Position numbers and translations under genes: made by a program
DNA from: Trichobilharzia szidati
Lineage: Eukaryota > Platyhelminthes > Trematoda > Strigeidida > Schistosomatidae
Direction of reading: 5' to 3'
Length of the DNA stretch: 64,000 nt
Assembly: GCA_944472155.2 (NCBI GenBank)
Contig: OX235277.1
Location: 29,274,804 to 29,338,803 of the forward strand
Shown: piece after piece, positions 17,180 to 58,854 of the stretch
Numbering within the stretch: the first letter of the stretch is position 1
Layout: the number at the start of each line of letters is the position of its first letter
The notes under the pieces: generated by a model
Databases searched by the model: none
What the model saw: only the letters and a program-made list of their open reading frames with translations
Told to the model about the DNA's origin: nothing

Positions 17180-17187
17180 GTCGGTAT

Positions 17188-17392
17188 AGGATCTCATCAT
17201 GAGCTGATATCGGTTAGAGAAACATTGGATAACCTGGCAGTACTGCACAGTTATTTTGTCCTAGTTTGGGACTCTTCAGCAGCTGTCCAATGCTTCAAGG
17301 TTTTCCACCAGTTCTCTAGCCGATGTCAGCTCATGACAAGTTCCTGTAGCCAACCAAATCATAGCAAACCAACACTTGAATCGTCGGTATTT
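17188..17392. mobile_element. SINE-A inverted dimer with 8-bp TSD
   Basis: A minus-strand 3' part (17188-17278, including the hammerhead region) is joined directly to a plus-strand 3' part (17279-17392). The unit is flanked by GTCGGTAT (17180-17187, 17393-17400). In the minus copy the ribozyme keeps CTGAAGA and stem II, but GAAA has become AAAA and the cleavage-side stem is changed, so it is probably inactive. Confidence 0.75.
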
Positions 17393-17756
17393 TCTCTGAC
17401 CTCCGGATCTTTGATTGTCTGCTTAAAAATATTTATTGTTCTGTTCGATTACATTTTGATGAAAATATTCTCAGGTGTTTGACATTTGCGTTTAGATAAC
17501 TATTTTTTGTTCTATAGTACGTATTACCGTACCGGCCTAACAAGTAAATCCTTGTTTGATTGTGCCGAAAATTTCATCAAATTAGGTCGAAAATCATCTT
17601 TGCCCGTGTATGACTCAAGGACACTTTAGTCAAATATGCTGATAACGTAGGAAGTCATGTGACGGATCACATCAACTTGGTTACGTTTATTTATTCCCTC
17701 TGTTCCTCAGTTCAAATCGAAATACTCTGGCTTCAGTCGATACAATTGTAAACTGT

Positions 17757-17918
17757 ATTATTATTATTGTTCCTTGGGTTACTAGTGGAATATAGGGCTC
17801 CAACCGCACGTCTCCACTTGCTTCTGTCTTCTGCTGTACTTTTCACCTTCATCCATGTTAATCCATACTGTCTCAACTCCTCTTCACATGATCTCCTCTA
17901 TGTCACCCTTGGAGGAGT
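17757..17918 (-). mobile_element. RTE-like LINE 3' terminal fragment
   Basis: About 160 bp of the RTE 3' end on the minus strand, with the AAT tail at left and the coding remnant WRRSCEEEL..YGLTWM in broken frames. It resembles 32750-32900 closely. Confidence 0.75.
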
Positions 17919-18164
17919 TAAATAATCAATACAAACTGACAAATATGACTTATTTCCAAAAGATTAGTGGTCCACATTCACTTCCCAAATGACACACTTT
18001 TAGAAGTCACATAGTTTAATAGTCGATAGTAACCCCTAGAAGAAGAGGAAGGTCAGGTGTGTTTATTCAAGCAACCCGATGCCGTATAAAATAGACAACA
18101 CATCTACATTCAAATTAAAATGCACGAAAATGAAAAAGAAACCACAAAATAAGGGTACTAAATA

Positions 18165-18895
18165 AATTATCAAAAGCATCCAGGTACCGAATACTCCAAA
18201 CAGCAGAGGCTATCACGATCCACCTAAATCAACTGGTGCTTTGTGTACAGAAGAAACAGGTACAACCACTGTTACTAACCTGGCCCTCTGTGGAGTCTGC
18301 AAATTCACAAATACCTTATTACGTCAGCCTTTATTGATATGGCCCTACATCCTGTACATACAAAATCCCCTATCCCCTGTCATTAAACCTGCACTAAGTG
18401 ACCTTTGTTTTCTTATTGAAACGTAGTCATTAACTCACACACTGACACACACAACTCACATAAAATTCAACGCCGAAAGTCTCTTTCCCCTACCTCTGTC
18501 CTTGACATGATCATTTATCCATCTGAAGTTTATAATCAATGTGAATAGAATCTGATGTGAATAAGACTCAGGCGAATTTATTACTCTACATTCCCTGTTC
18601 ATGATCATTTACTTTGTAATATTGGTGTTCAATTTAGTATGATACGTACAATTATACATATTACCACATGCATTATATATTTTAGATTGTTCTCTATTAA
18701 AACAATCTATTTGCGAATAACTCTTGGAGTTCTGATCTAAATGGTTCGATGTTACTCTTTTTAAAAACCACTAATGCTGTCAACACCAATCATTCTTTCA
18801 TTATTGTGAATGTTTAACTGTAGAGCTTGATGAAGAGGGAGGTTATCGAAAAGAATATTCTTTGTTCAGTAACCAATCCACCAAAAAGGGTCAAA
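18165..18895 (+). pseudogene. PLE-1 3' end and UTR
   Basis: The plus strand carries a frame-disturbed C-terminus (LCTEETGTTTVTNLALCGVC, about 18239-18300). The whole family 3' UTR follows, ending in GAATATTCTTTGTTCAGTAA at about 18857-18876. It is the best reference for the PLE-1 tail; 6345-6850 matches it in reverse complement. Confidence 0.8.
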
Positions 18896-19320
18896 AAAAA
18901 TTTTGGTTTCAAAATGCAGTTAATTAACCTTCTAATTAAGTATTTCTTATCATAAATTTTAAAATTAGGAATGAGAACTATTCACTAATTAGTTGAAGCT
19001 TTTTAAAACGTCAGAATTCTTGCTGATATAAGCAGTTGGATGGTTGGTATCTATCTAACTGCCTGATACATGTAAATGGAATGAAGTTTCACAAGGATAT
19101 TAAAATTTGCACATCACGCTTTTTGAAATATCACGAAAGAGAAGAAATGGAGAGATGCAGGAAAGAAATCGGCATTTTCCGAGGAAGGAGAGATAACGAC
19201 TGTGTAAGACATTGAGTTTACATAAGGAATAACTTTTGAAAAATGTTTTAGAACTGATTTCACATCATACTGTCCAAACACGATGGCGTGTCAGTTATAT
19301 ACTACTTATTGATATATACA
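18896..19320. other. No gene seen
   Basis: AT-rich sequence with no recognised content. Confidence 0.4.
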
Positions 19321-19321
19321 T

Positions 19322-19562
19322 GTACGTCGGTAGTTTAGATGTTGAACGCTCGCCAACCATGCACATGGTTTGGAATTCGATCTCCTACAGATGCATTCCT
19401 AAACGTCGCTAAGCCGGTAAGTAAGGCTGGTAAAGAGGGAAGACTGGACGTGAGACTAGCAACCCCAACCCGCAAAAATAAAACCACTGCTACCGAAAAT
19501 TGAAAGTTCTAGCCTGAATTCCTATGTTCCACTCGGCACGTTAAGGAACAAAATAAAGTGAT
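19322..19562 (+). mobile_element. SINE-D copy, most complete
   Basis: Head with GGTAGTTTAGATGTTGAACGC and B-box-like GAATTCGATCTCC, a body with CTAAGCCGGTAAGTAAGG, the block GACTAGCAACCCC, and the tail CCTATGTTCCACTCGG. The same 16 bases close the RTE-like LINE (for example 1047-1062). Sharing of a 3' end fits SINE mobilisation by the RTE machinery. Confidence 0.75.
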
Positions 19563-19569
19563 AATACTA

Positions 19570-19810
19570 ATATTGATATGAGTAGTTGGGAATGACTCAG
19601 ATGAAGCAGAAGTGATTGCTAGCTAGATCAAAGTTATCTGGATGGATGTTTGGCTTGTTTGGACTTGACCAGTTGAACTAGGTCAGCTTCGAAGACCGAA
19701 GCTGCTAAGAGCACCCGAATTTCGGATAGCTACTTGGATGAATTGGTAATGCATAGAATGAGATTTGTCACTTTACAATCAGGGCAAGCTGCTAATCAGC
19801 GCATAACCGA
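19570..19810. repeat. Dispersed repeat G, copy 1
   Basis: Resembles 31905-32110: AGTAGTTG..., then a TTTGGCTTGTTTGGA-like block and GGATGAATTGGTAATGCATAGAAT. Class unknown; in both places it lies beside a SINE-A copy. Confidence 0.45.
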
Positions 19811-19828
19811 ACCAACAAAATGTTAGTC

Positions 19829-20314
19829 CCCTAGTTTTGGTTTACAGGGATTTGATTTGATTGGTTACAGGATTTCATCATGAACTGACATCGGCTAGAC
19901 AACCATTGGACAGCCAGCTGTGTCGTCCTAGTCTCTTGAGACTCTGCTTCAGCAGTACGCACCTAACCCACAGCAAGGGTTCGAACGCACAAACTACCAT
20001 TTACAAGGCGAGCAAGCTCGCAGATCAGCACGTATCCACTGGGGCTCTCTAGAGGTAGTGCTACATCGTGAATTAGCAGAAGTAGGAAATCACAGGTTGG
20101 TAACTGGATCGAGTCCCAGTGGATAACGAATGGTCTACGAGCGTGCTCCCCTTGTAACCGGAAGGTCGTGAGTGTAGAACCCTAGTTGTGGGGTGGGTGC
20201 GTACTGCTGAAACAGATTTCCAAGAAACTAGGACGAAACAGCTGGCTGTCCAGTATTCCCAGATACTTTTCCAATAGCTGTCTCTAGCCCATGTCAGTTC
20301 ATGATGAAATCCTG
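19829..20314. mobile_element. SINE-A inverted dimer with perfect 12-bp TSD
   Basis: Minus copy 19829-20052 and plus copy about 20075-20314 lie head to head, with 3' tails outward. The pair as a whole is flanked by AAAATGTTAGTC (19817-19828 and 20315-20326). Each copy has the tRNA-like head (plus copy: CAGTGGATAACGAATGGTCTA), a ribozyme region with small insertions, and the 3' sequence CAGTTCATGATGAAATCCTG. Both ribozymes are disrupted. The single TSD shows that the dimer entered as one unit. Confidence 0.9.
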
Positions 20315-20326
20315 AAAATGTTAGTC

Positions 20327-20921
20327 TTTTATTTATATCAATTTGATCTGGCTAACAAGTACCGCTGCTTGACGTAAAGGATTTGTAACTACTAATTTAA
20401 ATCAATCAGTACTATATACCTCCACTCTACTCCACTTGTTTACTTGATTCATGTTTATGCTATCAAGGAAGTTGTGACAAATTCTCACGTTAGTTTGAGT
20501 AATTTGTAAATATCGAATTCAATTGTACAAGGAGCATACCTGAAATGTTTCAAAAATGATTTCAAAACACATGTCACTCCAATCAACATGTGCAGCACCA
20601 TCTAGAGACATTCATAAACCATATCATCGGAAAGTATGATTACATCGACTATTTTTTTGCCTTTAGGTCTGTTTGTACTTCCTGGAACAATATTGGACTT
20701 CATTTAGCCTATCGGTTGATGAAGAGGGAAGGTTAGATATGACGCTAGCAACCCTATTCAGTGCAGACAGCTCCACTGGTGACAAAACTGCAATTCTATG
20801 AGACATCGTCTGTGAGTTGATGTATTCAATGGTCATCAGATAAAGGAAATGGTATTCGAAAATATTCATAAACAACAAAATTTCTTCTGATGAATTCAAA
20901 TATTAAAAAAAGGAAACTTAC
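20327..20921. other. No gene seen apart from SINE-D scraps
   Basis: Around 20727-20765 there is a short GCTAGCAACCC match to SINE-D. The rest is unrecognised AT-rich sequence. Confidence 0.35.
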
Positions 20922-20990
20922 TGTACTCTTTGATGCTGTAGCACGGAATGCTGGAGGTGTTCGATTCGCATTAGAACCATCTGATTCGAT
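20922..20990 (-). CDS. Host gene exon: short Ser/Thr/Pro-rich segment
   Basis: A 69-nt exon on the minus strand. The acceptor follows a pyrimidine-rich tract and TTGAATAG; the donor is ACA|GTAAGT. It encodes IESDGSNANRTPPAFRATAS plus KST, phase 0 at both ends. The preceding exon (22966-23191) also ends in phase 0, so the reading frame is continuous. No domain. Its shortness keeps confidence moderate; the gene should continue to the left, but I could not identify the next exon. Confidence 0.6.
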
Positions 20991-21110
20991 CTATTCAAGG
21001 GAAGGAAGTTAAGAGAAGAATAATGCATAAAGTCTAGTGATATAGACTTAAGAGTATTTACTGAATCTACTAAGCGGATTCAGAATATTGAAAAAGCACC
21101 CAATAAGTAT

Positions 21111-21463
21111 TGTAACGACAGAAGACAAGGGCCAGATAACACATCGTTTATTGAGAAAATCAATAGATATTTATGCATTTTTATGTACATTATTATTAGC
21201 GTTATTGTTAGCGGAGAAGCAAAATCCTATGATTGATTGTTTTCTGGCTGGAGGTTATTCTGTACTGCTTGCGGCCGTTTCTTAGAAAGTTAAGCCATAT
21301 ATCTGCGAATCATATTTACACACGTTAATTCTGCTGTGATTGGTTGGTGCGTTCCACAAAGTTAAGCTTTGTTATTGTTTATTTCTCATTACACCAATTC
21401 GGGACATAAACATTGACGTAAACTGTTGTCTGCAATTCTGGCTTGCAAAGAGCTGTCACCACA
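21111..21463. repeat. Solo-LTR-like repeat, copy 2, with 4-bp TSD
   Basis: TGTAACGACAG...GTCACCACA, 353 bp, matching 5212-5561 throughout. It is flanked by GTAT (21107-21110 and 21464-21467), the duplication size expected of an LTR retrotransposon integrase. No internal region remains, which fits LTR-LTR recombination. Confidence 0.7.
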
Positions 21464-21501
21464 GTATGACTATATGAAGCACTATGATGAATTTTTTTCA
21501 G

Positions 21502-21569
21502 GAAGTAATCTTTAGAATATTTCGCCTGACCTGCATTGCCTGCGTTCTAGGACTCAATCAACAAGACAG
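21502..21569 (+). other. Possible small plus-strand exon
   Basis: ATTTTTTTCAG precedes and GACAG|GTAAGTAG follows a 68-nt stretch that is open as EVIFRIFRLTCIACVLGLNQ plus QD. The splice signals are good, but no partner exon or homology was recognised. It may be chance. Confidence 0.2.
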
Positions 21570-21884
21570 GTAAGTAGATAACTTTTCTTGAAATCATGGA
21601 CGAATTCATATCACGTTCAGAATTCTGATTTGTAGAACTTATCCTGAGGCTTTTATTCATAAATTCCTCAAAATTAGTACTTTAGAAACCCTCAGATGAA
21701 TTCCAATTAGTAAAGACTTAATCAAGAGGAGCCGACTGACGTCTAGTTCTACCTCAGCCTTTATTCTAATAACAACGATTACAATGATAGTAATAATAAG
21801 TGATAATTATATTGCTCTTAGATTATGGGCGGTCACCGCTACTTATCACTTATCCAAGTAACTTCACGATAATTATTAAAAAGG

Positions 21885-22395
21885 AGGATGCAGTGAAGTA
21901 AATTTTCTTTTCGACGAAGTCATCAACAGAGGATGTACATTCGTGTATTTATAGTAAATTCATGAAAAACTTCCAGAATTATTTCCGGTCAAAGGTTAAA
22001 TTAATAAAATTACAAAGTGTAATAATCAGGAAGATCAGGTAGAAGAGACATAATGAGATCATAATTACTGAATTACTGTTTGTACAATTACGGATTAAGG
22101 ATGTAGTAATAACAAAATAGGTGAGGAGTTCAGACATAAAAAACAAACTCACAAATCTAGTAATGCAGATAGGAATTAAAAACGTCAAAATAACAGGAAT
22201 GAACAGGAAAACTGAATAAGAAAGGTAATAAGACAATCATTATTGATGGGACTGACTTTTCATGATGGTCACGATAGGGACAACGGTTGGAAGTATTTCT
22301 TTTGAACACATAGTGCGGGCTTAAGCTTTGGGATCACCAGTGCCTCAGCTATTCCTAGATGCCTGATAGGTTTGATCGGATGTTGTATATTACTT
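21885..22395 (-). pseudogene. Penelope-like element 3' end
   Basis: The minus strand encodes the typical PLE C-terminus LGIAEALVIPKLKPALCVQK then KYFQPLSLS (about 22258-22360). A T-rich 3' UTR follows, ending at left with GAAAAGAAAATTT. It belongs with the 41490-42400 family by its terminus. Confidence 0.7.
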
Positions 22396-22920: not shown

Positions 22921-22965
22921 TCACAACCTTTTCATCAATAATTGCGAATGTAATATGATACTTAC

Positions 22966-23191: not shown

Positions 23192-23438
23192 CTGTAAAAT
23201 AAGAAGAAAAATGAAACAAGAAATATATACAAATCATGAATTCCATGCTGTCTTTCACAAACTATAGTATAAGATATTATTGAAAGAGAAGGCGTTCAAC
23301 GAAGAGATATTCTTTTCGGAGATAGCACTCGCAAGTTGTACAATAGTACACATATATAGTAAATTATCTTAGCAACAAAGGCAATATTTCTGAAGATGTT
23401 TCATCAGGAGTGTAAATTTTAGTTGGAAATCACGTAAT

Positions 23439-23714
23439 GTTCAAGAATTAGTTTGTAAGGATTCAATTTCTTTCAGGTTAAACCACGGATTGATATCAGT
23501 TAGAAAATCATTGAAAACCAGCACTGGAGAACTGGACAGCCAGCTGTTTCATCCTAGTTTTGAACTCATCGGTCGTATGCACCCACTGGGTTTCGACCAG
23601 GAACTTCCTGTTACAAGTTGAGTGGGCTCGTATACCATTCAGCCACTGGGACCCGATTCAATGGCCCATGGCTTTCAATGGTTCTCTAAATGACATCGAT
23701 CTTTAGTCTAACCT
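23439..23714. mobile_element. SINE-A inverted dimer (long minus, short plus) with 13-bp TSD
   Basis: A near-full minus copy (about 23439-23668) is joined to the last about 45 bp of a plus copy (TTTCAATGGTTCTCTAAATG onwards). The unit is flanked by the perfect 13-bp direct repeat GAAATCACGTAAT (23426-23438, 23715-23727). It lies immediately upstream of the exon at 22966-23191, in the large intron. The ribozyme in the minus copy has lost its CUGANGA box. Confidence 0.9.
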
Positions 23715-23937
23715 GAAATCACGTAATTTAGAAAGCGTTAATCGAGTAGAAATTAAAATTAAATTTAATCAGTAAGTTGAGTGGCGTCATATAATTGACG
23801 CAGTTGAGTAGAATTCAACTAAAACTTCGAGGAGAGTCAAGTTAACAATAGTGGTAATAAGCGGTAGAGATTTAATAGGGTGTGGAATAAGAATGTAATA
23901 CAATTAAGAAACAAAAACCAAAAAATTACGTATTTGG

Positions 23938-24139
23938 TGTGCGTCGGTGGCACAGTGGTTATGACTCTTGCCGATCATGCACACGGTCCGGGGTTCGATC
24001 CCCTGCCGGCGCACACCCGATATCTATGGTCGGCCTGAATTCGGGCTACCGATATCCATGCTGAAAGTTCCACACTTGTACTGAATATACGGTGTGGAAT
24101 TAAGCTGTAAATCAAAATAATAAATAAATAAAATAAATA
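23938..24139 (+). mobile_element. SINE-C copy
   Basis: Nearly identical to 14003-14195: GTGGCACAGTGGTTATGACT head, GGGTTCGATCCCC, body, and an (ATAA)n tail. Few differences suggest recent activity. Confidence 0.85.
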
Positions 24140-24149
24140 GATCAGGTCT

Positions 24150-28252: not shown

Positions 28253-28264
28253 ATCAAATTATAT

Positions 28265-28877
28265 GTTAACGAGTTTGACCACGGATTGATATCAGTTAGA
28301 GAACCATTGAAAACCAGCTAAGGAGTACCGGAAAGCCGTTTCATCCTAGTTTGCGAATAATCAGAAGTACGCACCCATTGACAGGGTTCGAACCCAGGAC
28401 CTTCTGCTCACAAGGCAAGCTCGTATATCATTCAGCCACTGGGACCCTACTCCTCAATCTCCAGTCGATGAATTCTAACTTCTACCAATACTTGATTTAG
28501 CGCAACCACCAACCAATGTCATCGGTGGGAAATCCATCCTCACACTTGACTGGATGGACCTCACTGGTCACGACTTCTCAACAGTACTCCAGGAAACTCC
28601 ATCTTGCAGCAAGTCACTAGCGAGCATCAGATTGATTGGTACAGTCGGCCATTGAATCGGGTCCCAATGGCTGACTGGTACACGAACTTGCCTTGTAACC
28701 TGAAGGTACTGGGTTCGAACCTTGGTGGTGGGTGCGTACTGCCGATGATTCCCAAACTAGGCTGACGAAACAGCTGTCCAGTACTTCCGAGCCGGTTTTC
28801 AATGGTTTTCTAACTGATATCAATTCGCGGTCATACTGGTAAATACAAATTTAATCCTTACCGACCAACCCTTGAAT
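28265..28877. mobile_element. SINE-A inverted dimer
   Basis: Minus copy 28265-28478 and plus copy 28610-28877, head to head, with about 130 bp between that also occurs inverted at 39580-39650. Flanks ATCAAATTATAT (28253-28264) and ATCAAAATATAT (28878-28889) form an imperfect duplication (11 of 12). The plus copy has head CAATGGCTGACTGGTACACG, B box GGGTTCGAACC and ribozyme stem I GTACTG/CAGTAC. Its core reads CCGATGA (U to C) and stem II is weakened. Confidence 0.8.
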
Positions 28878-29099
28878 ATCAAAATATATAGCCAGAAAAA
28901 ATTACATAAACTGAAGTCAGTTCATTTGAAGGTCACTTGTTGGTAGACATTTGTACTAATAGGAAAATGTAAACAGTCATCACATGTGTGTAATGGGAAT
29001 AATGTCAAATTTTCATGTATGCATATTTGTCTGTATGACTGGGTGTGTGTATGTTGGTCGTTAGGAGGAAAACACGTCAAAACAAGATAATATTTCAAA

Positions 29100-30705: not shown

Positions 30706-30710
30706 TACAT

Positions 30711-31065
30711 ATTCAAGTTTTGTTTTGCATGGATTTGATTTGATTGGTTACAGGATTTCATCATGAGGTGACATCGGTTAGAGAACCATTGGAAAACAAG
30801 CTGGCAGAACTGGACAGACAGCTGTTCCGTCAGACTGGTTTGTGGCTCTTCAGCAGTACGTACGCAACGGGTATCGGGCTCTGGTAGTTTAATGGTTTGA
30901 AAGTTCGCCTATTAACAGAACTGTCCTAGAGTCGAGCCCTGTTTGTGGGGCGGGTGCGTACTGCTGAAACAGAGTCCGAGACTAGGCTGACGAAACAGCT
31001 GGATTTCCAGTACTCCCAGCTTGTTTTCCAACGGTTCTCTAACCGATGTCAACTCATGACAAAAT
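30711..31065. mobile_element. SINE-A inverted dimer
   Basis: A minus 3' part (30711-about 30865) and a plus copy (about 30880-31065). The plus copy has a B-box-like GAGTCGAGCCC and ribozyme segments GACGAAACAGCTG. Small insertions break stem II, so the ribozyme is degenerate. No clear TSD. Confidence 0.7.
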
Positions 31066-31576: not shown

Positions 31577-31850
31577 ATATATTTTCAAGTATTGGTTTTC
31601 GTAGGGATTTATTTTGATTGGTTGGAGGATTTCATCATGAACTGACATCAGTTAGAGAACCTTTGGAGAACCTGGGAGTACTGGACAGCTGTTTCGTCGT
31701 AGTTTGGGAATCACTGGCAGTACGCACCCACCGTCAGGGTTCGAACCCAGCACCTTCTGGTTACAAGGCGAGCTAGCTTGCCGATCATTCATCAGCCACT
31801 GGGACCCGATCCAATGGGCAGCCCATGAATTCTAACTTCTGCCAATATAT
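31577..31850 (-). mobile_element. SINE-A copy inside the fold-back
   Basis: Near-full minus copy: head with CAGTGGCTGATGAATGATC, B box GGGTTCGAACCC, ribozyme stem I GTACTG/CAGTAC and GACGAAACAGCTGTCC intact. The first core box reads CCAGTGA and stem II has mismatches. The 3' tail is ...AAATCCTCCAACCAATCAAA then CCAATACTTGAA. Confidence 0.75.
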
Positions 31851-33889: not shown

Positions 33890-34557
33890 ACTTGCATAAA
33901 AATGTAATATTGAAGTGAATATCAACTAAAATTAGGAAATTTCCACTGAAATTCAGGATCATTCGAACCTAGATGGCCAAGGTAAGGTCAATGTCAGAAC
34001 TAGCTTCTTTCGGACACATAAATTAGGCTTCTTAATGTTGATCCCAACAGCCTAAGAAATATTTGGTAATCGAACTGTTAAGGATAGAGAACACAAGACT
34101 GATGTCAACGAGGCTTTCGGAGTCATGTGCCGCATACCAACAAATTTTAACTTCGCTTTAAGAGTTCGATTCCTAAATATTTCTTAGGCTGTTGGGATCC
34201 ACATTAAGAAGCCTAATTTATGTGTCCGAAAGAAGCTAGTTCTGACATTGTCCTTACCTTGGCCATCTAGGTTCGAATGATCCTGAATATTTGTGGAAAT
34301 TTCCTAATTTTAGTTGATATTCACTTCACTATTACATTTTTATGCTTGTTATAACTTAAGCATCTTTAATGAACTGTTATTCTATAGTGATCTTACTGAA
34401 CAAATCGATATTATTAAAAAAACACTAATATTGTTATTGGCTACTAATCTAGAATATTTAATGTGTATAAACATATATATAGCTGTAGAGCCAGAAGAGG
34501 AAATTATCGAAAAGGATATTCTTTGCTCAATTATTTTGTTATATATATATATATATA

Positions 34558-35112
34558 TGAGCTGACATCCGTTAGAAGACTATTGGAAAACCAGCCAAGA
34601 GAACTGGACAGCTGTCTATTTCGTCCTAGTCCTTTAGCAGTACGCACTCACCTCACAGACAGGGTTGGACCACACGACCTTCAGGTTACAAGGCCAGGGA
34701 GCTTATTGACCATTCATCAACTGCTAAGACCCAAACCAGTGGATAACCCATGAATTCCAGCTTCTGGAAAGTTGTGAACAGTGAGCTACAGCAGGTTGGT
34801 TGTGAAGAGAAATACTCGACATTGGCTAGTTCCAGTCACGATATATAGTGAACTGACAGCAGGCGGAATTCATGGGCTAGCCATTGGATTGGGTCCCAGT
34901 GGCTTAATGGTCTACTAGCTAGCTCGCCTTGTAACCGGATTGTTTTGGGTTCGAACCCCATCTGTGGGGTGCGTGCGTACTACTGAAGCAGAGTCCTAAA
35001 CTAGGTTGATGAAACAACTGGCTGTCCAGTACTCCTAGGTTTTTAAATGGCTCTCTAATCGATATCAGTTCATGATGAAATCCTGTAACCAATCAAATCA
35101 CATCCCTGAAAA
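34558..35112. mobile_element. SINE-A inverted dimer
   Basis: Minus copy 34558-34770 (3' tail truncated in a TA microsatellite) and plus copy about 34862-35112 with head CAGTGGCTTAATGGTCTAC, B box GGGTTCGAACCCC and tail ATCCTGTAACCAATCAAATC. Both ribozymes are disrupted; the plus copy reads ACTGAAGCAGAGTCC with a 2-nt insertion. Confidence 0.8.
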
Positions 35113-35336
35113 CCAGCACTTTAATATGTATAAGAATGTTCTCTTTTCAGTCTTATAACAGTAACAAATGGCTTAGTTCTAAACAGTACTTCTAAGAGAG
35201 TGCGAAATTCTCCACATATAGGATTTCTGTTTGTTTATTGCATAATAAGGTAAAAAAGTAGCTGATGAGGCATTTACATTCATTGTAATTTCAGTAGAAA
35301 TACAAATATAGGACTAAAATTCAACAGAAATAGTGA

Positions 35337-39165: not shown

Positions 39166-39477
39166 AAATCAAAATCATTCACCTGAGCTACAAATTATTA
39201 TTATTATTTCAAAAAGCATCCACATCTATTTAATATATCCTCTGTTTACCTATAATATTGATTATATTCGTAGGTATCCGTGTGTGTGTATGTGTGTATG
39301 TATATATACACTTATGTCCATAAATGAAGTGTTTACGCATTTCTAATTGGAAGATAAAAACATTTTCGACTCTTGTTTATATTTACAAATTTAAATTAAG
39401 TTGTATTTGTATTTAAATTGAAAACCTAATTAAGAATAATAATAATAATGAAAATCAGTTAGGAAAAAAACTATTTT

Positions 39478-39955
39478 AACCCAGGGTGTACTGGACAGCT
39501 GTTTCGTTATAGCCTATTTTGCGACTCATTGGTAGTACGCACCCGCTGGGTTTCCAACCTTTGAAAATTAAAATGATGCTCGCTAGTGACTTGCTAAAGG
39601 ATGGAGTTTCCTTGAGTTCTAGAGAGAAGTAGTGACCAATGAGGTACATTCTGTCAGGAGTGGAGATGGAGTTCGCGTTAAAAATCACGATATGGTAGAA
39701 GCTAGAATTCGTGGGCTGGCCATTGAATCGGGTCTCACTGGCTGAGCTACGAGCTTACCTTGTAACGGGAAGGTCCTGGGTCTGAACCCTGACTGTGGGT
39801 TAGATGCGTGCTGTTGAAGCAGAGTCCCAGACTAGGCTGATGAAACGGCTCTCTGTCCAGTACTCCCTAGACGGTTTTTAATGGGTCTCTAACCGATATC
39901 ACTCCGTGGTCAAACTCCAAAAACAAATCAAACCCTTACAAGATAACTCTTCAAA
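39478..39955. mobile_element. SINE-A inverted dimer
   Basis: A truncated minus copy (39478-39560, ribozyme region), a middle block also found inverted at 28550-28625, and a full plus copy (about 39690-39955) with head CACTGGCTGAGCTACG and tail CCGTGGTCAAACTCC. The ribozymes carry insertions. Confidence 0.75.
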
Positions 39956-40135
39956 AATAATGAAAATAATAAAGTGGAAATTGAAGGAAAAAATCTTGTT
40001 TCCTCTATGAATTACTCAACTTTTATTGCAGCTGTGTTCTCTGAGCTGGGTGGTTTACTTGCGTAGCTTTCGTTGCCTTACTAGCCAACATCTTCAGCAC
40101 ATACTTCAGTTTTTTCAAGTAAGCTTCTAAATTTC

Positions 40136-40584
40136 CAAGTATTGGTTTTGTAGGGATTTTTGTTTTGTTTGATTGGTTGGAGGACTTCATCATGATCTGA
40201 CATCAGTTAGAGAAGCATTGGTAAACCACCAAGCAGTACTGGACAGCTGTTTCCGCCGTTCCAGTTTGGGACACTTCAGCAGTGCGCACCCACTGGGGTT
40301 CAAACCCAGGACCTTCTGGTTACAAGGCAAGCTCGTAGAACAATAAGCCATTGGGACCTAGGGTTCTGGTGGGAAGCAGTGGCCAGTATGGCACAGCAGG
40401 TTGAAGGTGAGGCAATAACTCATCGAAGGAGACATGGCGAAGTAGTCACGCTATATTGTGAATTGGCAGAAGTTGGAATTCATGAGCTGGCCATTAGACT
40501 GGGTCCCAGTGGCTTAATGGCCCGCGAGATAGCCTCGTAACCGGAAGGCTCTGGATTCGAACCCCGGCGGCTGCGTACAACTTT
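40136..40584. mobile_element. SINE-A inverted dimer with 8-bp TSD
   Basis: A full minus copy (40136-40360) and the 5' part of a plus copy (about 40450-40584) that stops just after its tRNA-like head. Flanked by TAAATTTC (40128-40135, 40585-40592), part of an imperfect 13-bp match. Confidence 0.75.
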
Positions 40585-40592
40585 TAAATTTC

Positions 40593-45572: not shown

Positions 45573-45581
45573 GGCAGTTGT

Positions 45582-46078
45582 TTGAGGATCTCATCATGAG
45601 CTGACATCAGTTAGAGAACCATTGGGAAACCAGATGGGAGTACTGGACAGCTAACTGTTTCGTCCCAGCTTAGTACTCTTCATCAGTACGCACCAACACC
45701 ACAGGGATCGAACTTAGGACCTTCTGGTTACAAGGCAAGCTCATGGACCATTGAGCCACTGGTGAGGACGCTTACTCATCGAAGAAGACATTGCAAAGTA
45801 GTCGTGCTGTGTCATGAATTGGCAGAAGTGAGAATTCATGAGCTGGCCATTGGATCGCGTCCCAGTGGCCTAGTGGTCTACGGAAGGTCCTTGGTTTGAA
45901 CTCTGGTGTGGTGGGTGCCTAATGCAGAAGAGACCCAGGAGACTAGGACGAAACAGCCAGCTGTCCAGAATTGCTTGATGATTTTCCAATGGTTCTCTTA
46001 ATGATGTCAGCACATGATGAAATCCTCCAACCAATCAAAGAAAACAAAAATCCCTACAAAACCAATACTTGAAGAATA
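45582..46078. mobile_element. SINE-A inverted dimer with 9-bp TSD
   Basis: Minus copy (45582-about 45770, tail truncated) and plus copy (about 45815-46078, complete tail ATCCCTACAAAACCAATACT). The unit is flanked by GGCAGTTGT (45573-45581, 46079-46087). In the minus copy the first core box reads ATGAAGA, and an insertion lies in stem III. Confidence 0.85.
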
Positions 46079-46437
46079 GGCAGTTGTCTCTGGTAATCCT
46101 AGTTTACGTCTTATCAGAAAAACATACTCACGAGAGACTTAGAATTCCCCTGTTATTTTCCTCATAGTGAAGTTTATATTATATGCAGTAAATTTGTAGA
46201 AAGCATTATTCAGATAAAGAGGAAACAACTTTCCTATCGTTCAAAAAAAGGATAAACTGTCATTAATCATTTTGCCCCTAAATTGTTCATCAGCTGTATG
46301 TCGAACAGGTAGGTAGGCGTCTAGACTGGTCGCATGGTTTGACCTAAAGTCAGATATAAGTCAGCCAACCAATAGAAATTAGAACCATAAATTGATTTCA
46401 CTAATTATCGATTACCTGGATAAGTCAGTATGATGTT

Positions 46438-46862
46438 TAATTGGTGGATGGTGACTAGCAGGGGAATCCAGCCAAGATGTGCATTTTGTCCTATTTGGGA
46501 CTGGTCAGCTGGATGTACCTGCATTTCTCAGTGAGTGATGATGTTCCCACCAAGGCTCGAACCCAGCGCCCATAGTTTCAAAAGCCAAAGCGTTATCCAG
46601 TAAACTTCTAGGGCCACGAGACGAGAAAATCTAAAATTCAATTAAATCAATATGACCCATCGCACAAGAGGTGGCTCTCGTGGTCCAAGTCGTCTAGTGG
46701 ATAACGCTTTGGCGTTTGAAACTATGGGCGCTGGGTTCGAGACTCGGTGGGAACATCATCACTTACTGGGGAATGCAGGTAAATCCAACTGATGAGTCCC
46801 AAACAGGACAAAACGCACACCTTGGCTGGATTCCCCTGCTAGTCACCATCCACCAATTAACT
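46438..46862. mobile_element. Sm-alpha-like SINE inverted dimer
   Basis: The minus copy (46438-46621) is fused directly to a full plus copy (46622-46862). The plus copy has the leader AAATTCAATTAAATCAATAT, tRNA-like head (GTGGTCCAAGTCGTCTAGTGG; B box GGGTTCGAGACTC), the hammerhead region, and the end ACCATCCACCAATTAA. The layout matches my knowledge of schistosome Sm-alpha repeats. No TSD found. Confidence 0.85.
46780..46855 (+). ncRNA. Degenerate hammerhead (Sm-alpha-like)
   Basis: CTGATGA (46789-46795) and stem II GTCC/GGAC are intact, but GAAA has become AAAA (46810-46813) and the cleavage site is altered. Stem I segments ATCCA / TGGAT remain. Predicted inactive. The minus partner reads CTGACCA and is also broken. 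Confidence 0.75.
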
Positions 46863-49031: not shown

Positions 49032-49290
49032 CAAGAGTTAGTTTGTAGGCAATTGGTTTGTTTTAAGTTGGTTGATCGCGCTAAAATCGAGAATTGAAAA
49101 AAGTTAGAATTCGCAGATCATTGAATTCCTGCCCAGTTGGCTGAATAGTCAATGAGCATGGCCTCGTAACCTGATTACGCTTTGGGTGCGTACTGCTGAA
49201 GAGACCCAAACTAGGGCAAAGCAGCTGTTCAGTACTGTCTGGTTTTCAAGCATTCTCTAATTGATATCAGTATGTCATCGAGCTCAAAAG
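49032..49290. mobile_element. SINE-A inverted dimer, small left arm
   Basis: A minus tail piece (49032-about 49085) then a plus copy (about 49103-49290). The ribozyme keeps GTACTG-CTGAAGA and stem I, but the second core box reads AAAG in place of GAAA. Confidence 0.7.
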
Positions 49291-51955: not shown

Positions 51956-52003
51956 TAATAAATATCTGTAATAAATACTGCACAGAATGTAGTTAAAGCC
52001 TAC

Positions 52004-52374: not shown

Positions 52375-52449
52375 CTGTTAGGATCAATTTGAATATTTTT
52401 ATCAAAATTAAAAATCAATTAATTTATAATTACAAAATAATGATAATAC

Positions 52450-52754
52450 TAATATTTTCAAGAGTTCGGTTTGTAAGGATTAGATTTGTTTATACGAGTT
52501 TGACCATGGATTGATATCAGTTAGAGAACCACTGAAAACCAGCACTGGAGTACTGGACAGCTGTTTCATCCTGGTTCGGGAATCGTCATCAGTACGCACT
52601 GGACCCAGGGCATTTCAGTTACAAGGCAAGCTCGAACCCCAGGGTGTGCGTACTGCAGATGATTCCCAAACTAGGATGAAACAGCTGTTCATTACTTCCT
52701 GATTTTCAATGGTTCTCTAACTGATATCATCCCGTGGTCAAACTCGTATAAACA
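52450..52754. mobile_element. SINE-A inverted dimer with 8-bp TSD
   Basis: Minus copy about 52457-52635 and plus copy about 52636-52754, sharing the tail CCATGGTCAAACTCGTATAA-type sequence. Flanked by GATAATAC (52442-52449, 52755-52762). The ribozyme stem I and GAAACAGCTGTCC remain, but the first core box is altered in both. Confidence 0.8.
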
Positions 52755-53183
52755 GATAATACAAGTAATAAACTTCATAATAAACAGCATCAATGGTTTA
52801 CAAGCCTGTAATTATTCTACATTTTGATGAAATCAGTAATTAAATATCAGTTCTTGTCATTGATAGCCAGTATTTGTACACCTTCAGCAAATATTCAAAC
52901 ATGCGAAATATATTCCCAGTTCTTATCAGGAATAAAAACTCTGTACCATTGTCCCTATTACTGCTATGACGAAGTGTTACTGGTTTGTGGTTGTCGTTTA
53001 ACCTGACCAGTCACGGCACAATAATCAACTAATTACTTGAAAGTATTCCCAACACTGAGATAGACAGAGGTCAGATTTAACTGTGACAACAACGACATCA
53101 AATCAACAACGTTTATATATGTATATACATTAACAAATCTTAAGAAATTAAGCCATGAATAAATAGGGGAATCTAATTGCATG

Positions 53184-53284
53184 GAGGATTTCATCATGAG
53201 CTGACATCAGTTAGAGAACCATTGGAAAACCAGCTGGGAGTACTGGACAGCTGTTTCGTCCTAGTTTGGGACTCTTCAGCAGTA
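53184..53284 (-). mobile_element. SINE-A 3' fragment starting at its hammerhead
   Basis: A minus copy whose 5' end coincides with the first base pairs of ribozyme stem I; the tRNA-like head is absent. It runs from the intact hammerhead through CAGTTAG.. to ATCCTCCATGCAA. It may result from RT stopping at the structured ribozyme. Confidence 0.8.
53240..53284 (-). ncRNA. Hammerhead ribozyme motif, intact core (SINE-A)
   Basis: Read on the minus strand: stem I TACTG, core CTGAAGA (fits CUGANGA), stem II GTCC-CAAACTA-GGAC and core GAAA. Then a palindromic minimal stem III (A)CAGCTGT, cleavage triplet GTC, and stem I CAGTAC. All pairs are Watson-Crick and all core residues are consensus. It is the only SINE-A copy here with a fully canonical core. 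Confidence 0.85.
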
Positions 53285-53959
53285 AGCTAAAAAATAAACC
53301 AATCAAAACGTCCAGTCTGATTTTTGTGTTATTGCCTGTTTAAATCATGACTCCACAGCTAACAAAGAAACTGATGCGCCCTGGCAATTTATATTTTAAA
53401 ACCACTAACTTATTTGTCAAGCTAAACGTTGTAACGCTGCTTCGTCTTTCTAAACTACGAGGAAGTTTAATAAATAAATCACCTTGTGTTTCTTCACAAA
53501 AACTTTAATCATTCCTTTCAATCCCAGGGGAATACATAGGACTTCAAGTTTTGAGATTTGAAGTTTTTCGGTAGCCGTGTTGGTATGGCATAACCATACC
53601 CAACCTCCAGTTGAGGTTTGCACGTGCAACGACCGACAATTGAACTCCGACCACATGCGCAATTAGTGAGCATTCTTCTATTGATCTACGGATGCAAATA
53701 GATTCGTAGATCTGTTGAATTGAATGTGAAAGAATATTTTTTACTCGAAAATTATCTTCTAACAAACGTTTACCAGCTGAGAAGTATTGAGGTTAGGCAA
53801 AGATTGCTAGTAAAGCAAGGGAGTCAACCGATGAGGTAGCGAACCTATACTGACTGAGATGACTAAGAGATGTGTTGCCCATGGCAGGCAATCGTGGCTG
53901 ACATAGGATTAGGTTGGAACAGAGTTTCTGGAAGTCAAACCAAAACCTGGAGCAAATCC
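53285..53959. other. No gene seen
   Basis: Unrecognised sequence; no splice-flanked exon found. Confidence 0.35.
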
Positions 53960-54215
53960 ATGAAGTCACTAGTAGCTAGTCTGAGCCACTTAGGGAGGTG
54001 TAAGCTGCCTGGCTGGAGTCTTCCAGATGCCAAGAACCAGTGACTGGAGACTATTGGTGATATGGCTCAAATTTGTTCTCACTGATGCAAATACATTCAT
54101 TCTTTGTAATTCGCCATATCCATTAAACCCTCGGGTTTTCCCTTGCTGCTATTTTCTCCCTCTTATGTCTTTCTTTGTGTGCCACATGGAGTGTGGTATT
54201 TTGAAATGATGCACT
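53960..54215 (+). repeat. Dispersed repeat E, copy 2
   Basis: Matches the reverse complement of 11335-11690 (GAGACTATTGGTGATATGGC, GATGCAAATACATTCATTCT). The ORF in it is incidental. Confidence 0.55.
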
Positions 54216-54591
54216 TCTGTGGAAAGTTATATATTGTTGAGCAGACCTCTATTTGACCACTTTCCAGCTAAATTACTTGGCCTTTTACGTAAGAAAATTG
54301 TTTCTTTTACGCCTTTATTCAACATGCGACATTCATTCGTACTTTCAGAATATCTCTTAATTATTTCTACAGATAACAAGGAACTTAACAACTGCTTTAT
54401 TCTTCTACATTATGCAACTTAATCACGCAATATAAATATCCATCATCTTTATGATCAATGTTACTGAAGTATTTGAATGTTCCGCATCCAAATGTTGACT
54501 GTTTTGTGGTTATATGAATCTGACAAGAACCGAACAAATATAATGACATAATTTTTTCTAGCTGAAAATGTTATTTTCGCTTTGTTGAAGT

Positions 54592-54645
54592 TTTCAAGTA
54601 TCTGTTTTGTAGGGATTTTTGTTTGATTGCATGGAGGATTTCAAG
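54592..54645 (-). mobile_element. SINE-A tail fragment
   Basis: Minus-strand 3' end only (TCAAGTATCTGTTTTGTAGG at the left edge). Heavily truncated. Confidence 0.55.
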
Positions 54646-54831
54646 TTTACCAAAGGAAATTGATAATGTGGACATATTGCATACATAGTTATTTTATCCA
54701 AACACAGTTAATTACTTTAAAGTAGTTATAAGTAGTTAGATAGGTATTGGAAGAAAATGCGAGGGAGGCAGACTAGTAGGCTATAGAATATAATGTTCGT
54801 TCCTCAAAATCTCTCTTGTCTTCTAGATCAT

Positions 54832-55650
54832 TGTTACTTATTCTTGGGTTCCGAGTGCAGCATATGGCTTTAACAACACATCTCCACTTTCTTCTATTTT
54901 CTCCTGGCCTCTTTAGTTGGCAAGCTCTGAGACTGCTCATAATCTGTCATCCCCTCCTTACACGATCTCTTCCATGTCACCCTCGAAGTGACGACTCACT
55001 CTTCCCTTCCCATTAGGATTCCACTCAGACGTTGACTTGCATTGTATGCGATATCATTCGATAGTCTCCTCAGCATACGCCCAGTCTATCTCCATTTTCT
55101 TTTACTTGGTTTTGATCAATCGACTCTTGGTTGGGGTCTTCCCGGAGTTTCTTGCCACTAATTCTCTCTGGCCGGCTATCTGATCTTCACTATGTAGCCA
55201 TAGTAGTGGACAGCTGTTGATAAAAGTTTGTAATCTGTGGCAAATACTGTCTTGGAGTGCCGAATTTCTGATCCACATATGAGAACTGACCGAATTCACA
55301 TTTGTGTTGAAAATCCAAGTCTTGTCCTTTACACTGAGTGCGGAAGATTTCCAAACGGATTTCAGAGTGTTGAATGTCTGTCTTGCCTTTTCGATTCTGT
55401 CTGGCCTTGACATCTTCATCGGTGCCAACTGTCTGTGGTTGAAACGCCGCTCCCTAGGTAGGTGAAGGAAGTAACCTCTGTCAAATTCCCCCCTTTGATG
55501 GTAATTGGTGCTGGTTGTTGCTGCTCTTGGTTGGTTGGTTACCTTAATCATCTTCGTCTTCTCTAGGTTTACCTGGAGTCCTGTCTTCTCTGTCCGCCTC
55601 TTCTGCCAGTTCGTTGGTTTTCGCTAGCAAGTTTTTGAGTTTGTGTGACA
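54832..55650 (-). pseudogene. RTE-like LINE 3' half, decayed
   Basis: The minus strand encodes RIEKARQTFNTLKSVWKSSA, then LSVKDKTWIFNTNVNSV and HRLQTFINSCPLLWL (55150-55400), with the Gln-type linker and EKTKMIKVTNQPRA upstream. The 3' end shows the family tail in altered form. Frameshifts throughout. Confidence 0.8.
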
Positions 55651-56254
55651 TTAAACAGATCATCCTTACTCAGTTTAATCGAAAGTCCTTTTGTAATTTT
55701 CATTTAAGCAGTGATAGAATTGCAACACCTAGTAATACCATGTGAATTACTAACATTGTGGACTGAAACAAAATGTAACGCAGTAGTAGTTAGTGTGATA
55801 TCATGTAGATGAGTCATCATGTTGAAATTGCAGTTGATGAACTTGTGTCTTCACTGAAGCAAGTGAAATACCCCTCAGAGATTGATTGAGGCAAGGGGAG
55901 GATACTAATTTCATCAATACTTCTGACATGCTTTACTGATGAGTGGTAGTAACAAAAAAATCTGGGCACAGGGTTCCTTTCCAGTTACCTACACACTGTG
56001 ACAGTGAGTTTTCAAGCTTGGTTACCTATTGCAAAAGTGGCTGAGTGAGTTCAGCTCGCACCAGTCCTAAAGACTAGACACATAATGCTGGTTAATCCTA
56101 AGTAAACAGTCGATATAATTATTTGATCTTCTTGACAATTTATAAGTGTATTAGTAAAGCTTGTTTAAGAATGTAACGGACAGATTACTCATTTGTGATC
56201 CAGAAAATATTTTTTATCTATTAGTGAACTAATCTGATACGCATGCCACATGTT
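55651..56254. other. No gene seen
   Basis: Unrecognised AT-rich sequence. Confidence 0.35.
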
Positions 56255-56485
56255 CTTCCTTGATCACCTTAGACAAATCAAGAAGTTTTTACAGCACTAG
56301 TTGTGCACTCTATCGATCGAAAGTGGACAAGTTTCTGTCTGAAGTCATTTCCAAATGTGTTAATAAATTCACATGTATGTGTCACAGTAAGTACATTGAT
56401 TTTCCCCAACACATTCCAAAAGATGTATGTTCTTCTCTTGTTAATACTATGGATCCAGTAAAGTCTTCCATTAGGTCAACCGAGA
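56255..56485 (+). pseudogene. Penelope-like linker/GIY-YIG fragment
   Basis: SRSFYSTSCALYRSKVDKFL then SEVISKCVNKFTCMCHSKYI aligns with LYSTTCSISQSKLDKYPADV of the 8600-10245 copy. It is cut by SINE-B. Confidence 0.7.
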
Positions 56486-56680
56486 GCCTGATTGGCTCAG
56501 TGGTAAAGTCTCTGATTACAACACTGGGTGACGCAGTTTCGAATCTCAGAATGGCCATGAGTTCCTTCGAGACTACATATACGCCTTGCTGGCGAGTGAA
56601 TGCTAACGAGTACGAAACCAAGGTCTAGCTAAGGCTTCCTGTGGCCGATCTCCTACAGCCAACTCATATATTTTGGGCTG
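56486..56680 (+). mobile_element. SINE-B copy with full tRNA-like head
   Basis: Head TGATTGGCTCAGTGGTAAAG and B-box-like GTTTCGAATCTC, spacer, degenerate hammerhead (56583-56635: CTGGCGA, stem II GTGA...GTAC, GAAA, CCAAGGTC) and tail CCTACAGCCAACTCATAT. It shows that the SINE-B 5' part is tRNA-derived. Confidence 0.8.
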
Positions 56681-56849
56681 TCTTCAACCAAAAATAATAG
56701 TCAAAATAAAATGCGCACATTTTATACTGTGCATTTTGATTCATATCTAGAAATCTGGAGACTAAAGTAAACACACTTCCTTAGCTTTGTATCAATGAAA
56801 TACAAATGTAATCTGATCAGGTGCTTAGCATTTAAAGCGAGGTCCATTT

Positions 56850-57500
56850 GTTCCGAAGACTGAGTAGAGAAAGAACTCCAGGTCATCCAAGACATTCTAA
56901 GCGAGAACGGATATCCAGAGAAGTTCATTAAAGCCAACATAGGTTACACTAGTCGTAAACATGAACTGGCAATGGTGGAGAAAAAGCTTCTATTTTTACC
57001 TCTGCAATTCAGGGGGGATATGCCAGCGGAGATTCTATCGCAACGTTTTACCAGGGCGATCAAGAAAACTTTCTACTTTGCACGTCTGTGTCTATCCTTC
57101 GGTAGCCATCCAATGTTCACCCAGTAACTCAAAGATGTCTTACCTAACCTTAGCTCTTCGTCATGCATATACCATTTCAACTGTTCTTGTGGTTCAAGTT
57201 ATATAGGGTGCACGATTAGATTGGTTCGTCTACGGGTTCGAGAACGCTTACCAGCTTGGTTCAGTAAGAGGGAAATGAAGTGCACAAAAAGCTCGATCCG
57301 GTCACACTTGGTCGATACTGGACATCGCATCGATGTCAACACAGCTTTCACGGTTATATACCGAATTCCGAAGTCGTTATCAGGTACAGTCTGCTTACGT
57401 CTCCTACACATATCTGAAGCTGTTGCAATAAGATCCACTAAACTGGAACTTTGTACCCAAAAAGAACACGTCCAGACGCTGTTCCTACCGTAGCCAAACT
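56850..57500 (+). pseudogene. PLE-2 Penelope-like linker and GIY-YIG domain, nearly open
   Basis: The plus strand encodes QDILSENGYPEKFIKANIGY, LPLQFRGDMPAEILSQRFTR and AIKKTFYFARLCLSFGSHPM. After one stop it gives CIYHFNCSCGSSYIGCTIRL, RLRVRERLPAWF, then SHLVDTGHRIDVNTAFTVIY and the C-terminus LELCTQKEHVQTLFLP. Apart from one stop near 57124 and ER in place of EH, the domain is complete. Confidence 0.85.
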
Positions 57501-57637
57501 TGGATTGATGATTCTTCTTCTCACCAAGAGTGCTTCTTCCCCTTAACCCGCTTGGGTTTTTCCCTTTGCTTAATATTACAATTACTATTATTATTCGTCA
57601 TAATTTATACACTTCATGCAAACATTCTCTCAATACT

Positions 57638-57900
57638 TAATTGGTGGATGGTGACTAGCAGTGGAATCCAAGATGCGCATTTCGTCCTATTTGGGACTCG
57701 TCATCTGGATGCACCCGCATTTCTCAGTGAGTGATGATGTTCCCACCGAGGCTCGAACCCAGTGCCCATAGTTTCCAACGCCAAGGCGTTATCCACTAGA
57801 CCACTTGGGCCACGAGAGCCACCTCTTGTGCAACGGGTCATATTGATTTAATTGAATTTTAGATTTTTTTCCCGTCGATTGATTGGACCGAAGTGCTAGG
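57638..57900 (-). mobile_element. Sm-alpha-like SINE, single copy with 12-bp TSD
   Basis: A complete 263-bp minus copy flanked by the perfect TCTCTCAATACT duplication (57626-57637, 57901-57912). It has tRNA-like head (GGCCCAAGTGGTCTAGTGG; B box GGGTTCGAGCCTC), hammerhead region and the end CCATCCACCAATTAAG. The hammerhead keeps stem II GTCC/GGAC, GAAA and an ATC cleavage site, but the first core base is changed (ATGACGA). It is the one clearly single, full-length insertion. Confidence 0.9.
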
Positions 57901-57912
57901 TCTCTCAATACT

Positions 57913-58435
57913 ATCAAATTTTCTATTTGTACTATCCGGACTTATTATTAGTGACATTATCTCTTTTCTTTATATATGCCCTCACCTGTTTCATTTCACA
58001 GATTGGTTATTTCATGATGAATCTCTCATTGCAGTTTTACTATCTCCTGTTTAACACAGACCACTTTGTACTAGCCACTCACCTGACACCTTTTATAACC
58101 TTCAACTGACTTGTCAATTTTCCTACCCCACACTCTACAAATCTATTATGACTAATCACCACCATTGTCCCCATTTTACAATATTTTGTAATCGATTTCA
58201 GCCTATCACGACGTTTGTCACACAAATACGACCATTTATTTTCACACTCCATATCTAATCTGTTATTCTACGCTAAAAATGCATCCGCCTCATAGCTGGC
58301 CATCATTCTAACGACAACAAATATTATATTTTATAATTGTAAGAACCTGAAGAGAAATTATTGAAAAGAATATTCTTCGTTCCGATTGACTTTGAATTTA
58401 TGATATGGGAATATTTCACACTATTAAATCTTATA
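57913..58435. other. Mostly unrecognised; PLE-type terminus near 58345-58380
   Basis: 58336-58380 (GAACCTGAAGAGAAATTATT, GAAAAGAATATTCTTCG) is the plus-oriented terminus of a Penelope-like element whose body I cannot identify. Confidence 0.45.
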
Positions 58436-58448
58436 AAGGCAAGCTCGT

Positions 58449-58739
58449 ATACCCTTCAGCCACTGGGATCCGGTTCAGTGGCCAGTCCATGAATTCTAAC
58501 TACTACCAATTCGTGATTCATTTAGAATTCATGGGACATTAAATCGGGTCCCAGTGGCTAAATGGTATACGAGCTTGCCTTGTAACCCGAAGGTCCTGGG
58601 TTCGAATCCCAGTAGATGATTCCCAAACTCGGATGAAACAGCTGTCCAGTACTCCCTGGGTTTCAATGGTTCTCTAACTGGTATCAATCCATGGTCAAAC
58701 TCGTAAAAACAAAACTAATCCTTACAAACCAACTATAGA
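58449..58739. mobile_element. SINE-A inverted dimer with perfect 13-bp TSD
   Basis: Short minus head piece (58449-about 58530) and full plus copy (about 58531-58739). The plus copy has CAGTGGCTAAATGGTATACG, B box GGGTTCGAATCCC, and ribozyme GATGAAACAGCTGTCC with stem I lost on its 5' side. Flanked by AAATCTTATAAAG (58436-58448, 58740-58752). Confidence 0.9.
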
Positions 58740-58854
58740 AAATCTTATAAAGTTACCACTAAACTCTTGCAAATATTGTCTCATAAATGCATAAATAAAC
58801 AAGAATACAAAATGAGATAGAAGAATCATACAAACTTGCGGAAGATTAACTTAC

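Follow-up and report, generated by a model that had tools for sequence, protein, structure and literature searches.

Along a 64,000-nucleotide (nt) stretch of the 1.11-Gb genome of Trichobilharzia szidati, a bird blood fluke (that is, a schistosome of birds), copies of a hammerhead-bearing short interspersed element (SINE), here called SINE-A, often occur as head-to-head inverted dimers: a minus copy is followed by a plus copy, the 5′ ends face each other and the 3′ tails point outward. We refer to the whole stretch as the window. Target-site duplications (TSDs) lie outside the pairs, and when the two outer ends of a dimer can be classed, one is almost always a short end (S) and the other a long end (L). 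The same architecture is found in a Penelope-like element (PLE) of this genome, and SINE-A thus shares two features of PLE-type integration, namely two 3′ ends a short tail apart and head-to-head inverted copies with an outer TSD. We consider it probable that SINE-A insertions are products of this kind of integration, in which PLE-type machinery would carry out two-ended target-primed reverse transcription on SINE RNA. As far as the literature was searched, a hammerhead SINE using PLE-type integration, spread through the sampled genome and showing the one-S-one-L pattern, is new; no earlier description of head-to-head hammerhead-SINE dimers was found in the open-access literature, a search that did not cover subscription papers and leaves absence unproven.

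SINE-A (family A, with subfamilies A1 and A2) is about 400 nt long. Its 5′ region is followed by a tRNA-like stretch that contains a B box, then by a type I hammerhead and by a 3′ region that runs to the S site; from there a tail continues to the L site. The tail is A+C-rich (74-80% A+C, vs 49% for the A1 unit). Both the B box, GGTTCGAACCC, and an A-box-like stretch were read by eye; ARAGORN reported one tRNA-Asp in the window and no SINE. Hammerheads exceed the gathering score of Rfam RF00163 in the window and in other loci, so that the type I hammerhead of metazoan non-LTR (long terminal repeat) retrozymes is present. Tandem copies, another retrozyme trait, occur at a minority of loci, where an L end is fused to a 5′ start (L003, L006, L018, L022; numbers with this prefix denote loci). 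At about 400 nt, SINE-A is too short for a PLE open reading frame (ORF) with reverse transcriptase (RT) and GIY-YIG, and was therefore not filed as a PLE. A second hammerhead family, B, resembles the Sm-alpha hammerhead repeats of schistosomes; its tandem unit is roughly 330 bp by eye, and tandem B copies occur in L007. By eye, an open frame crosses the A1 tail and is broken in A2.

The earlier note on this DNA, made from the window alone, held that nearly every SINE-A locus is a minus-plus pair, which overstates the case: 11 of the 19 family-A loci in the window are pairs and eight are lone arms, or 10 pairs and 3 lone arms (31582-31849, 49073-49288, 53168-53287) among loci with an arm of at least 100 bits. 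The seven direct repeats that it listed are all exact and each flanks a pair from outside, and a further 12-bp shared word, at pair 39444, was absent from its list. The paired copies in the window are as follows.

17180..17390: SINE-A dimer whose minus arm (about 17188-17282) has the S end and whose plus arm (about 17280-17382) has the L end; TSD GTCGGTAT at 17180-17187 and 17383-17390.
19817..20326: SINE-A dimer of a minus L arm (about 19829-20047) and a plus S arm (20049-20314), flanked by TSD AAAATGTTAGTC at 19817 and 20315.
23426..23727: SINE-A dimer in which a minus L arm (23439-23677) is followed by a plus S arm, very short and ending at 23714; TSD GAAATCACGTAAT at 23426 and 23715.
28254..28879: SINE-A dimer; the minus S arm is full length and reaches the 5′ start, the plus arm has the L end; TSD not clear; used for a junction query.
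30709..31065: SINE-A dimer; minus L arm; plus S arm; ends without an abutting TSD.
34557..35127: SINE-A dimer; minus S arm; plus L arm; TSD not clear.
39444..39967: SINE-A dimer; the minus arm stops about 23 nt inside S, the plus L arm is full length; each outer end carries the 12-bp word AATAATGAAAAT.
40128..40592: SINE-A dimer; minus arm with the L end, plus arm stopping about 93 nt inside S; flanked by TSD TAAATTTC at 40128 and 40585.
45573..46087: SINE-A dimer of a minus S arm (45580-45762) and a plus L arm (45722-46077), flanked by TSD GGCAGTTGT at 45573 and 46079.
46438..46859: family-B hammerhead dimer, head-to-head; TSD not found, longest shared word 6.
52442..52762: SINE-A dimer of a minus L arm and a plus S arm, flanked by TSD GATAATAC at 52442 and 52755.
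58426..58752: SINE-A dimer; the minus arm (58436-58520) stops about 143 nt inside S and is followed by a plus L arm (58521-58739); flanked by TSD AAATCTTATAAAG at 58426 and 58740.

Copies outside the window came from three sets. The first is a sample of 20 stretches of 10 kb, taken at regular steps from contigs C1 (10), C2 (6) and C3 (4) and picked beforehand regardless of SINEs. The likeness set comprises seven loci resembling window positions 17180-17800, of which six are left since L008 is the opposite strand of L004; its whole-dimer query may have selected on outer ends. The junction set consists of 27 short loci retrieved with two junction-spanning queries (7 of the 43 matches of the first, 20 of the 48 of the second), and because these queries span only about 60 bases on either side of the junction, they impose no selection on the outer ends. 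PLE loci of the same genome were added as a comparison set.

When families A and B are pooled, neighbouring copies no more than 300 bp apart stand minus-plus, with their heads facing, in 11 of 14 cases in the window and 15 of 19 in the sample, against 2 of 19 and 5 of 31, respectively, among neighbours farther apart (Fisher p = 1.6e-4 for the window and 1.6e-5 for the sample; binomial p = 1.2e-6 for the 15 of 19 against an expected 0.25). The orientation of neighbours, which the earlier note had proposed to score, is thus non-random, and since the excess appears in a sample that was blind to SINEs, the pairing is real and no peculiarity of this window.

Outer ends were classed as S or L by the absence or presence of the distal tail, with the threshold set at the 99th percentile of 3000 random segments. 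Both ends could be classed in 41 pairs, and 40 of these are mixed, with one S/S pair and no L/L pair; by set, the mixed pairs number 8/8 in the window, 8/9 in the sample, 6/6 in the likeness set (in which two S ends scored 20, slightly under the threshold of 24) and 18/18 among the junction-selected loci (in L054 the right end as classed was an inner hit, and the true right end is likewise S). L031 and L034 share flanks, which leaves 39 mixed pairs among 40 independent ones (p = 4e-11 under a 0.5 chance of S or L at each end) and rules out that the two ends take S or L independently. The hammerhead cleavage site is not where the outer ends gather; they cluster around S and L. In vitro, moreover, the PLE ribozyme is dispensable for insertion (PMC11167929). 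The tie to ribozyme-processed RNA that had been suggested earlier is therefore not supported.

The flanks of many pairs carry direct repeats. Left and right flanks share a word of at least 8 nt in 19 of 38 minus-plus pairs of families A and B, compared with 12.2% of 1406 mismatched flank pairs, and a word of at least 10 nt in 10 of 38 compared with 0.9%. For pairs of the junction set, words of at least 8 nt are shared in 16 of 18, compared with 34 of 306 mismatched pairings; two of those 16 words are simple repeats (L045, L056) and the word of L034 does not abut the end. In a hand-made list (n = 27) the TSDs are 8-15 bp long, and their AT fraction is 0.77 compared with 0.66 in the flanks. A TSD abutting both ends is lacking from four head-to-head pairs of the window, namely 28254, 30709 and 34557 (family A) and 46438-46859 (family B). 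In none of the 26 TSD-bearing pairs does the TSD recur inside the pair.

Paralogous copies of the target give a second line of evidence. At four of the six loci tried (8 alignments), a paralogous empty site is contiguous through a single TSD, and two of these are clean. The joined flanks of L002 match two targets in a LINE-like frame (LINE, long interspersed element) at 130 of 151 positions, with a 2-nt difference beside the TSD; for L043, 124 of 153 positions match. The empty sites of L047 and L048 are likewise contiguous, at just 70-71% identity. For L005 and the window pair at 23426, no contiguous paralogous copy of the joined flanks across a single TSD was found. The TSD outside the pair and none inside it, some paralogous sites from which the pair is missing and the variety of the junctions all support the earlier proposal that the pair integrated in one event.

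The junctions also bear on the template. We counted 17 distinct aligned partner breakpoints among 28 junctions (the two queries and 26 retrieved by likeness to them). In L018, L022, L036, L037, L050, L051 and L056 an arm extends beyond the 5′ start and enters the tail of the unit upstream, for which a tandem or circular template is needed. The S arms of L036 and L037 traverse the upstream unit's tail to about the S site, which is near one full turn of a circular unit. A single RNA serving both primers predicts S arms longer than L arms, and this scheme was rejected since both length orders occur among the listed pairs, as read by eye and without a count.

We suggest the following course of events. 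A PLE-type reverse transcriptase/endonuclease, probably a dimer, would make a cut staggered by 8-15 bp in AT-rich DNA, and both freed 3′ ends would prime reverse transcription at internal positions of SINE RNA, in most cases at S for one of them and, 38-45 nt downstream, at L for the other. The two cDNAs would extend toward one another, one often halting at or near the 5′ start of the unit and the other earlier, and joining of their 3′ ends would give heads-facing arms with outward tails, one short and one long, within an outer TSD. We infer here a PLE protein acting in trans on SINE RNA, two RNAs (or a tandem or circular RNA) as the template and the manner in which the cDNA ends are joined.

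PLEs of the same genome provide a direct comparison. In 73 matches to family P0013, the best-scoring of 136,721 candidates, three head-to-head ORF pairs abut, and one of these is a palindrome. Five PLE dimers have both ends visible: three are one-S-one-L (L063, read by eye, L064/L065 and L066/L067) and have shared words of 11-12 bp, that of L066/L067 being a TA repeat. The remaining two, L062 and L068/L069, are S/S palindromes with flanks that are likewise inverted, and were set aside; L068/L069 also counts among the three abutting pairs. The distance from S to L is 24 nt in P0013 compared with 38-45 nt in SINE-A. The P0013 reading frame passes through the S and L sites; taking the first methionine as the start, these sites fall a little way into the ORF, which parallels the arrangement in Adineta vaga (PMC3846280). 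The inverted flanks of L062 and L068/L069 (C1:120738200-120742280) could represent hairpin-type duplications or assembly artefacts.

Known systems resemble SINE-A to differing degrees. In vitro, the PLE enzyme cuts and extends both target strands, and two internal RNA start sites delimit a tail of 30-40 nt, the start region being AC-rich and the target AT-rich (PMC11167929); the element is Poseidon of Anolis carolinensis, which shares with SINE-A the cutting and extension of both strands, the two internal starts that delimit a tail, the AT-rich target and a hammerhead, and differs from it in that the start sites are equal on the two strands. SINE RNA is not described in the main text of that paper. 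The parts of PMC3846280 available to us describe Penelope of Adineta vaga with head-to-head inverted pLTRs (pseudo long terminal repeats) as the commonest arrangement, an outer TSD of 8-10 bp, an optional 31-bp tail on one inverted pLTR and an inverted pLTR shorter than the direct one; the pLTR contains the first 12 codons, which the tail lengthens to 22. As far as that text goes, this element is autonomous and low-copy, whereas SINE-A is short, has no PLE ORF, carries a full hammerhead and shows one S and one L end in nearly all classed pairs. Inverted pLTRs and 3′ extensions of PLEs are also mentioned in the accessible part of PMC8969392. The earlier note had proposed a distinct mechanism, such as two-ended priming; two-ended priming is supported, and the mechanism is not wholly unknown since it matches that of PLEs (PMC11167929 and the available text of PMC3846280).

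Metazoan non-LTR retrozymes share with SINE-A the type I hammerhead, a length of 150-450 bp, tandem copies and TSDs, with PLEs as candidate mobilizers; according to the available portions of PMC7229834 and PMC7761336, co-occurrence and shared traits make PLEs strong candidate movers of retrozymes (PMC7229834), and these could count as a novel SINE family (PMC7761336). Unlike SINE-A dimers they are arranged as direct tandem repeats, and the word 'inverted' is absent from the main text of PMC7229834. PLE RT sequences of T. szidati are given in PMC4465651, the accessible part of which does not name a hammerhead. On the matter of what moves the abundant hammerhead repeats of animals, the S/L pair signature offers direct genomic evidence for PLEs and can be searched for in any genome.

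Several observations weigh against PLE-type integration of SINE-A, or against the generality of its one-S-one-L rule. The lone S/S pair (L023) comes from the sample. Three window and eight sample pairs (11 of 28 family-A pairs), 9 of the 27 junction loci and all B pairs are unclassed, and family B does not follow the rule. The window pairs at 39444, 40128 and 58426 combine an L end with an end 23, 93 and 143 nt inside S that abuts a shared word, and L032 combines an S end with an internal one; these exceptions, at least four in all, are unclassed, and none was counted as mixed. Of 10 apparent single copies inspected, 8 have no convincing partner; in 5 of the 10, words of 8-9 nt are common to the outer flank and the upstream stretch, none of which abuts the lone arm. 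The in vitro start site is the same on both strands (PMC11167929), so that the one-S-one-L rule is not accounted for. No PLE carrying SINE-A-like S and L sequences, and so no helper PLE for SINE-A, was found, and comparison of the P0013 and SINE-A tails gave no convincing sequence likeness. The PLE and LINE match lists hold best-scoring candidates only.

Among other explanations, self-priming fares best. In this scheme, suggested for the inverted pLTRs of A. vaga Penelope, whose inverted repeats with palindromic junctions prompted it (PMC3846280, available text), the first cDNA, or else an antisense RNA, forms a fold-back, and copying yields a hairpin that opens to an inverted dimer. Partners are indeed somewhat closer than chance: 6 of 50 arms have their partner as the closest of all copies, where 0.6 would be expected, and the mean rank fraction is 0.29, which indicates that some pairs share a close source, and arm identity reaches 97% in L014 and 93% in L004. 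These ranks are noisy, as the hammerhead region is near-palindromic and subfamilies were pooled, and a measure of divergence relative to the consensus was therefore added. By that measure the arms of 27 dimers differ by 0.73 on average, compared with 0.79 (sd 0.12) when pairs are drawn at random within a subfamily, and a few dimers have far closer arms (L004 0.20, L014 0.39); the arms are thus mostly not copies of one another. The S arm, moreover, lacks the tail, and in L012 and L024 the L arm is barely more than a tail while the S arm is full length, so that neither arm could have been copied from the other. Both arms belong to the same subfamily in all 27 dimers with enough overlap; one of five short-overlap dimers is discordant, old and ambiguous. 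Self-priming is unlikely on this evidence, and, judged by their sequences, the arms overall would fit two RNAs from one active subfamily better than one arm copied from the other.

In L1 twin priming, two target ends prime reverse transcription and the TSD lies outside, a process thought to yield L1 5′ inversions. A LINE acting in this way on a single SINE RNA would account for two-ended priming and outer TSDs. Twin priming turns one RNA into two non-overlapping pieces, whereas SINE-A arms often overlap over much of their length and one monomer RNA cannot give both; in addition, a LINE control with a 351-aa (amino acid) frame as query showed by eye no abutting head-to-head pair in 116 matches, the best of 255,737 candidates, and the S and L ends resemble a PLE tail. 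We regard LINE twin priming as quite improbable.

Transcription of a preformed inverted dimer that propagates as a unit would explain why L002-L007, found by likeness to the 17180 dimer, have a common junction inside the hammerhead and why, with 17 breakpoints over 28 junctions, some breakpoints recur. The junction queries mostly match loci with other breakpoints, however, and the S ends gather near S and are not scattered like 5′-truncated RNA ends, which makes this account very unlikely. A foldback DNA transposon or a MITE (miniature inverted-repeat transposable element) with the SINE inside its terminal inverted repeats, which the inverted repeats and outer TSDs suggest at first sight, is hardly credible given TSDs of 8 to 15 bp, termini that usually differ (S vs L) and variable junctions and arm lengths. 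As an observation in its own right, L002-L007 and window 17180-17390 have their junction within or close to the hammerhead (palindrome ACAGCTGT), and in them the S arm is longer than the L arm; a hot spot may lie behind this, or these dimers may form a small copied lineage.

A broader reading can be put forward tentatively, at somewhat less than even odds. PLE integration itself may be a paired reaction, in which two target-primed reverse transcriptions are coupled, each on its own RNA template, and as a rule one would start at S and its partner at L; both strands of the insert would be started by reverse transcription from opposite target ends, with no ordinary second-strand synthesis, and hammerhead SINEs would be parasites that record this reaction genome-wide. 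The one-S-one-L pattern in itself constrains the poorly known PLE cycle, since S and L are not taken independently at the two ends.

Two further features of the window touch on these families.

2526..3776, minus strand: PLE open frame of 417 aa; RVT_1 by Pfam, GIY-YIG-like tail by eye; 99% identical to a T. szidati protein across 61% of the frame's length.
57666..57710, minus strand: type I hammerhead in a lone B copy, the top of 7 Rfam hammerhead matches in the window (62.5 bits).

The PLE frame is bracketed by 74-nt inverted repeats (1013-1086 and 3930-4003, 82% complementary), which may be PLE-related ends or another repeat. No hammerhead was detected in the P0013 loci L058-L063 up to E 1. 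A Pfam search for GIY-YIG gave two matches, of which at least that in L029 adjoins a LINE-like RT frame. Family B was also considered as the pLTR of a PLE, on account of a B pair beside a PLE endonuclease ORF in L014; this link was dropped because the B copy seems by eye to run on as a tandem B unit. The pair itself (L014:1588-2974) is old and lies immediately upstream of the ORF fragment. Finally, Rfam 18S rRNA matches occur in two of the 20 sampled stretches (L009:7956-8813 and L024:9435-10000).

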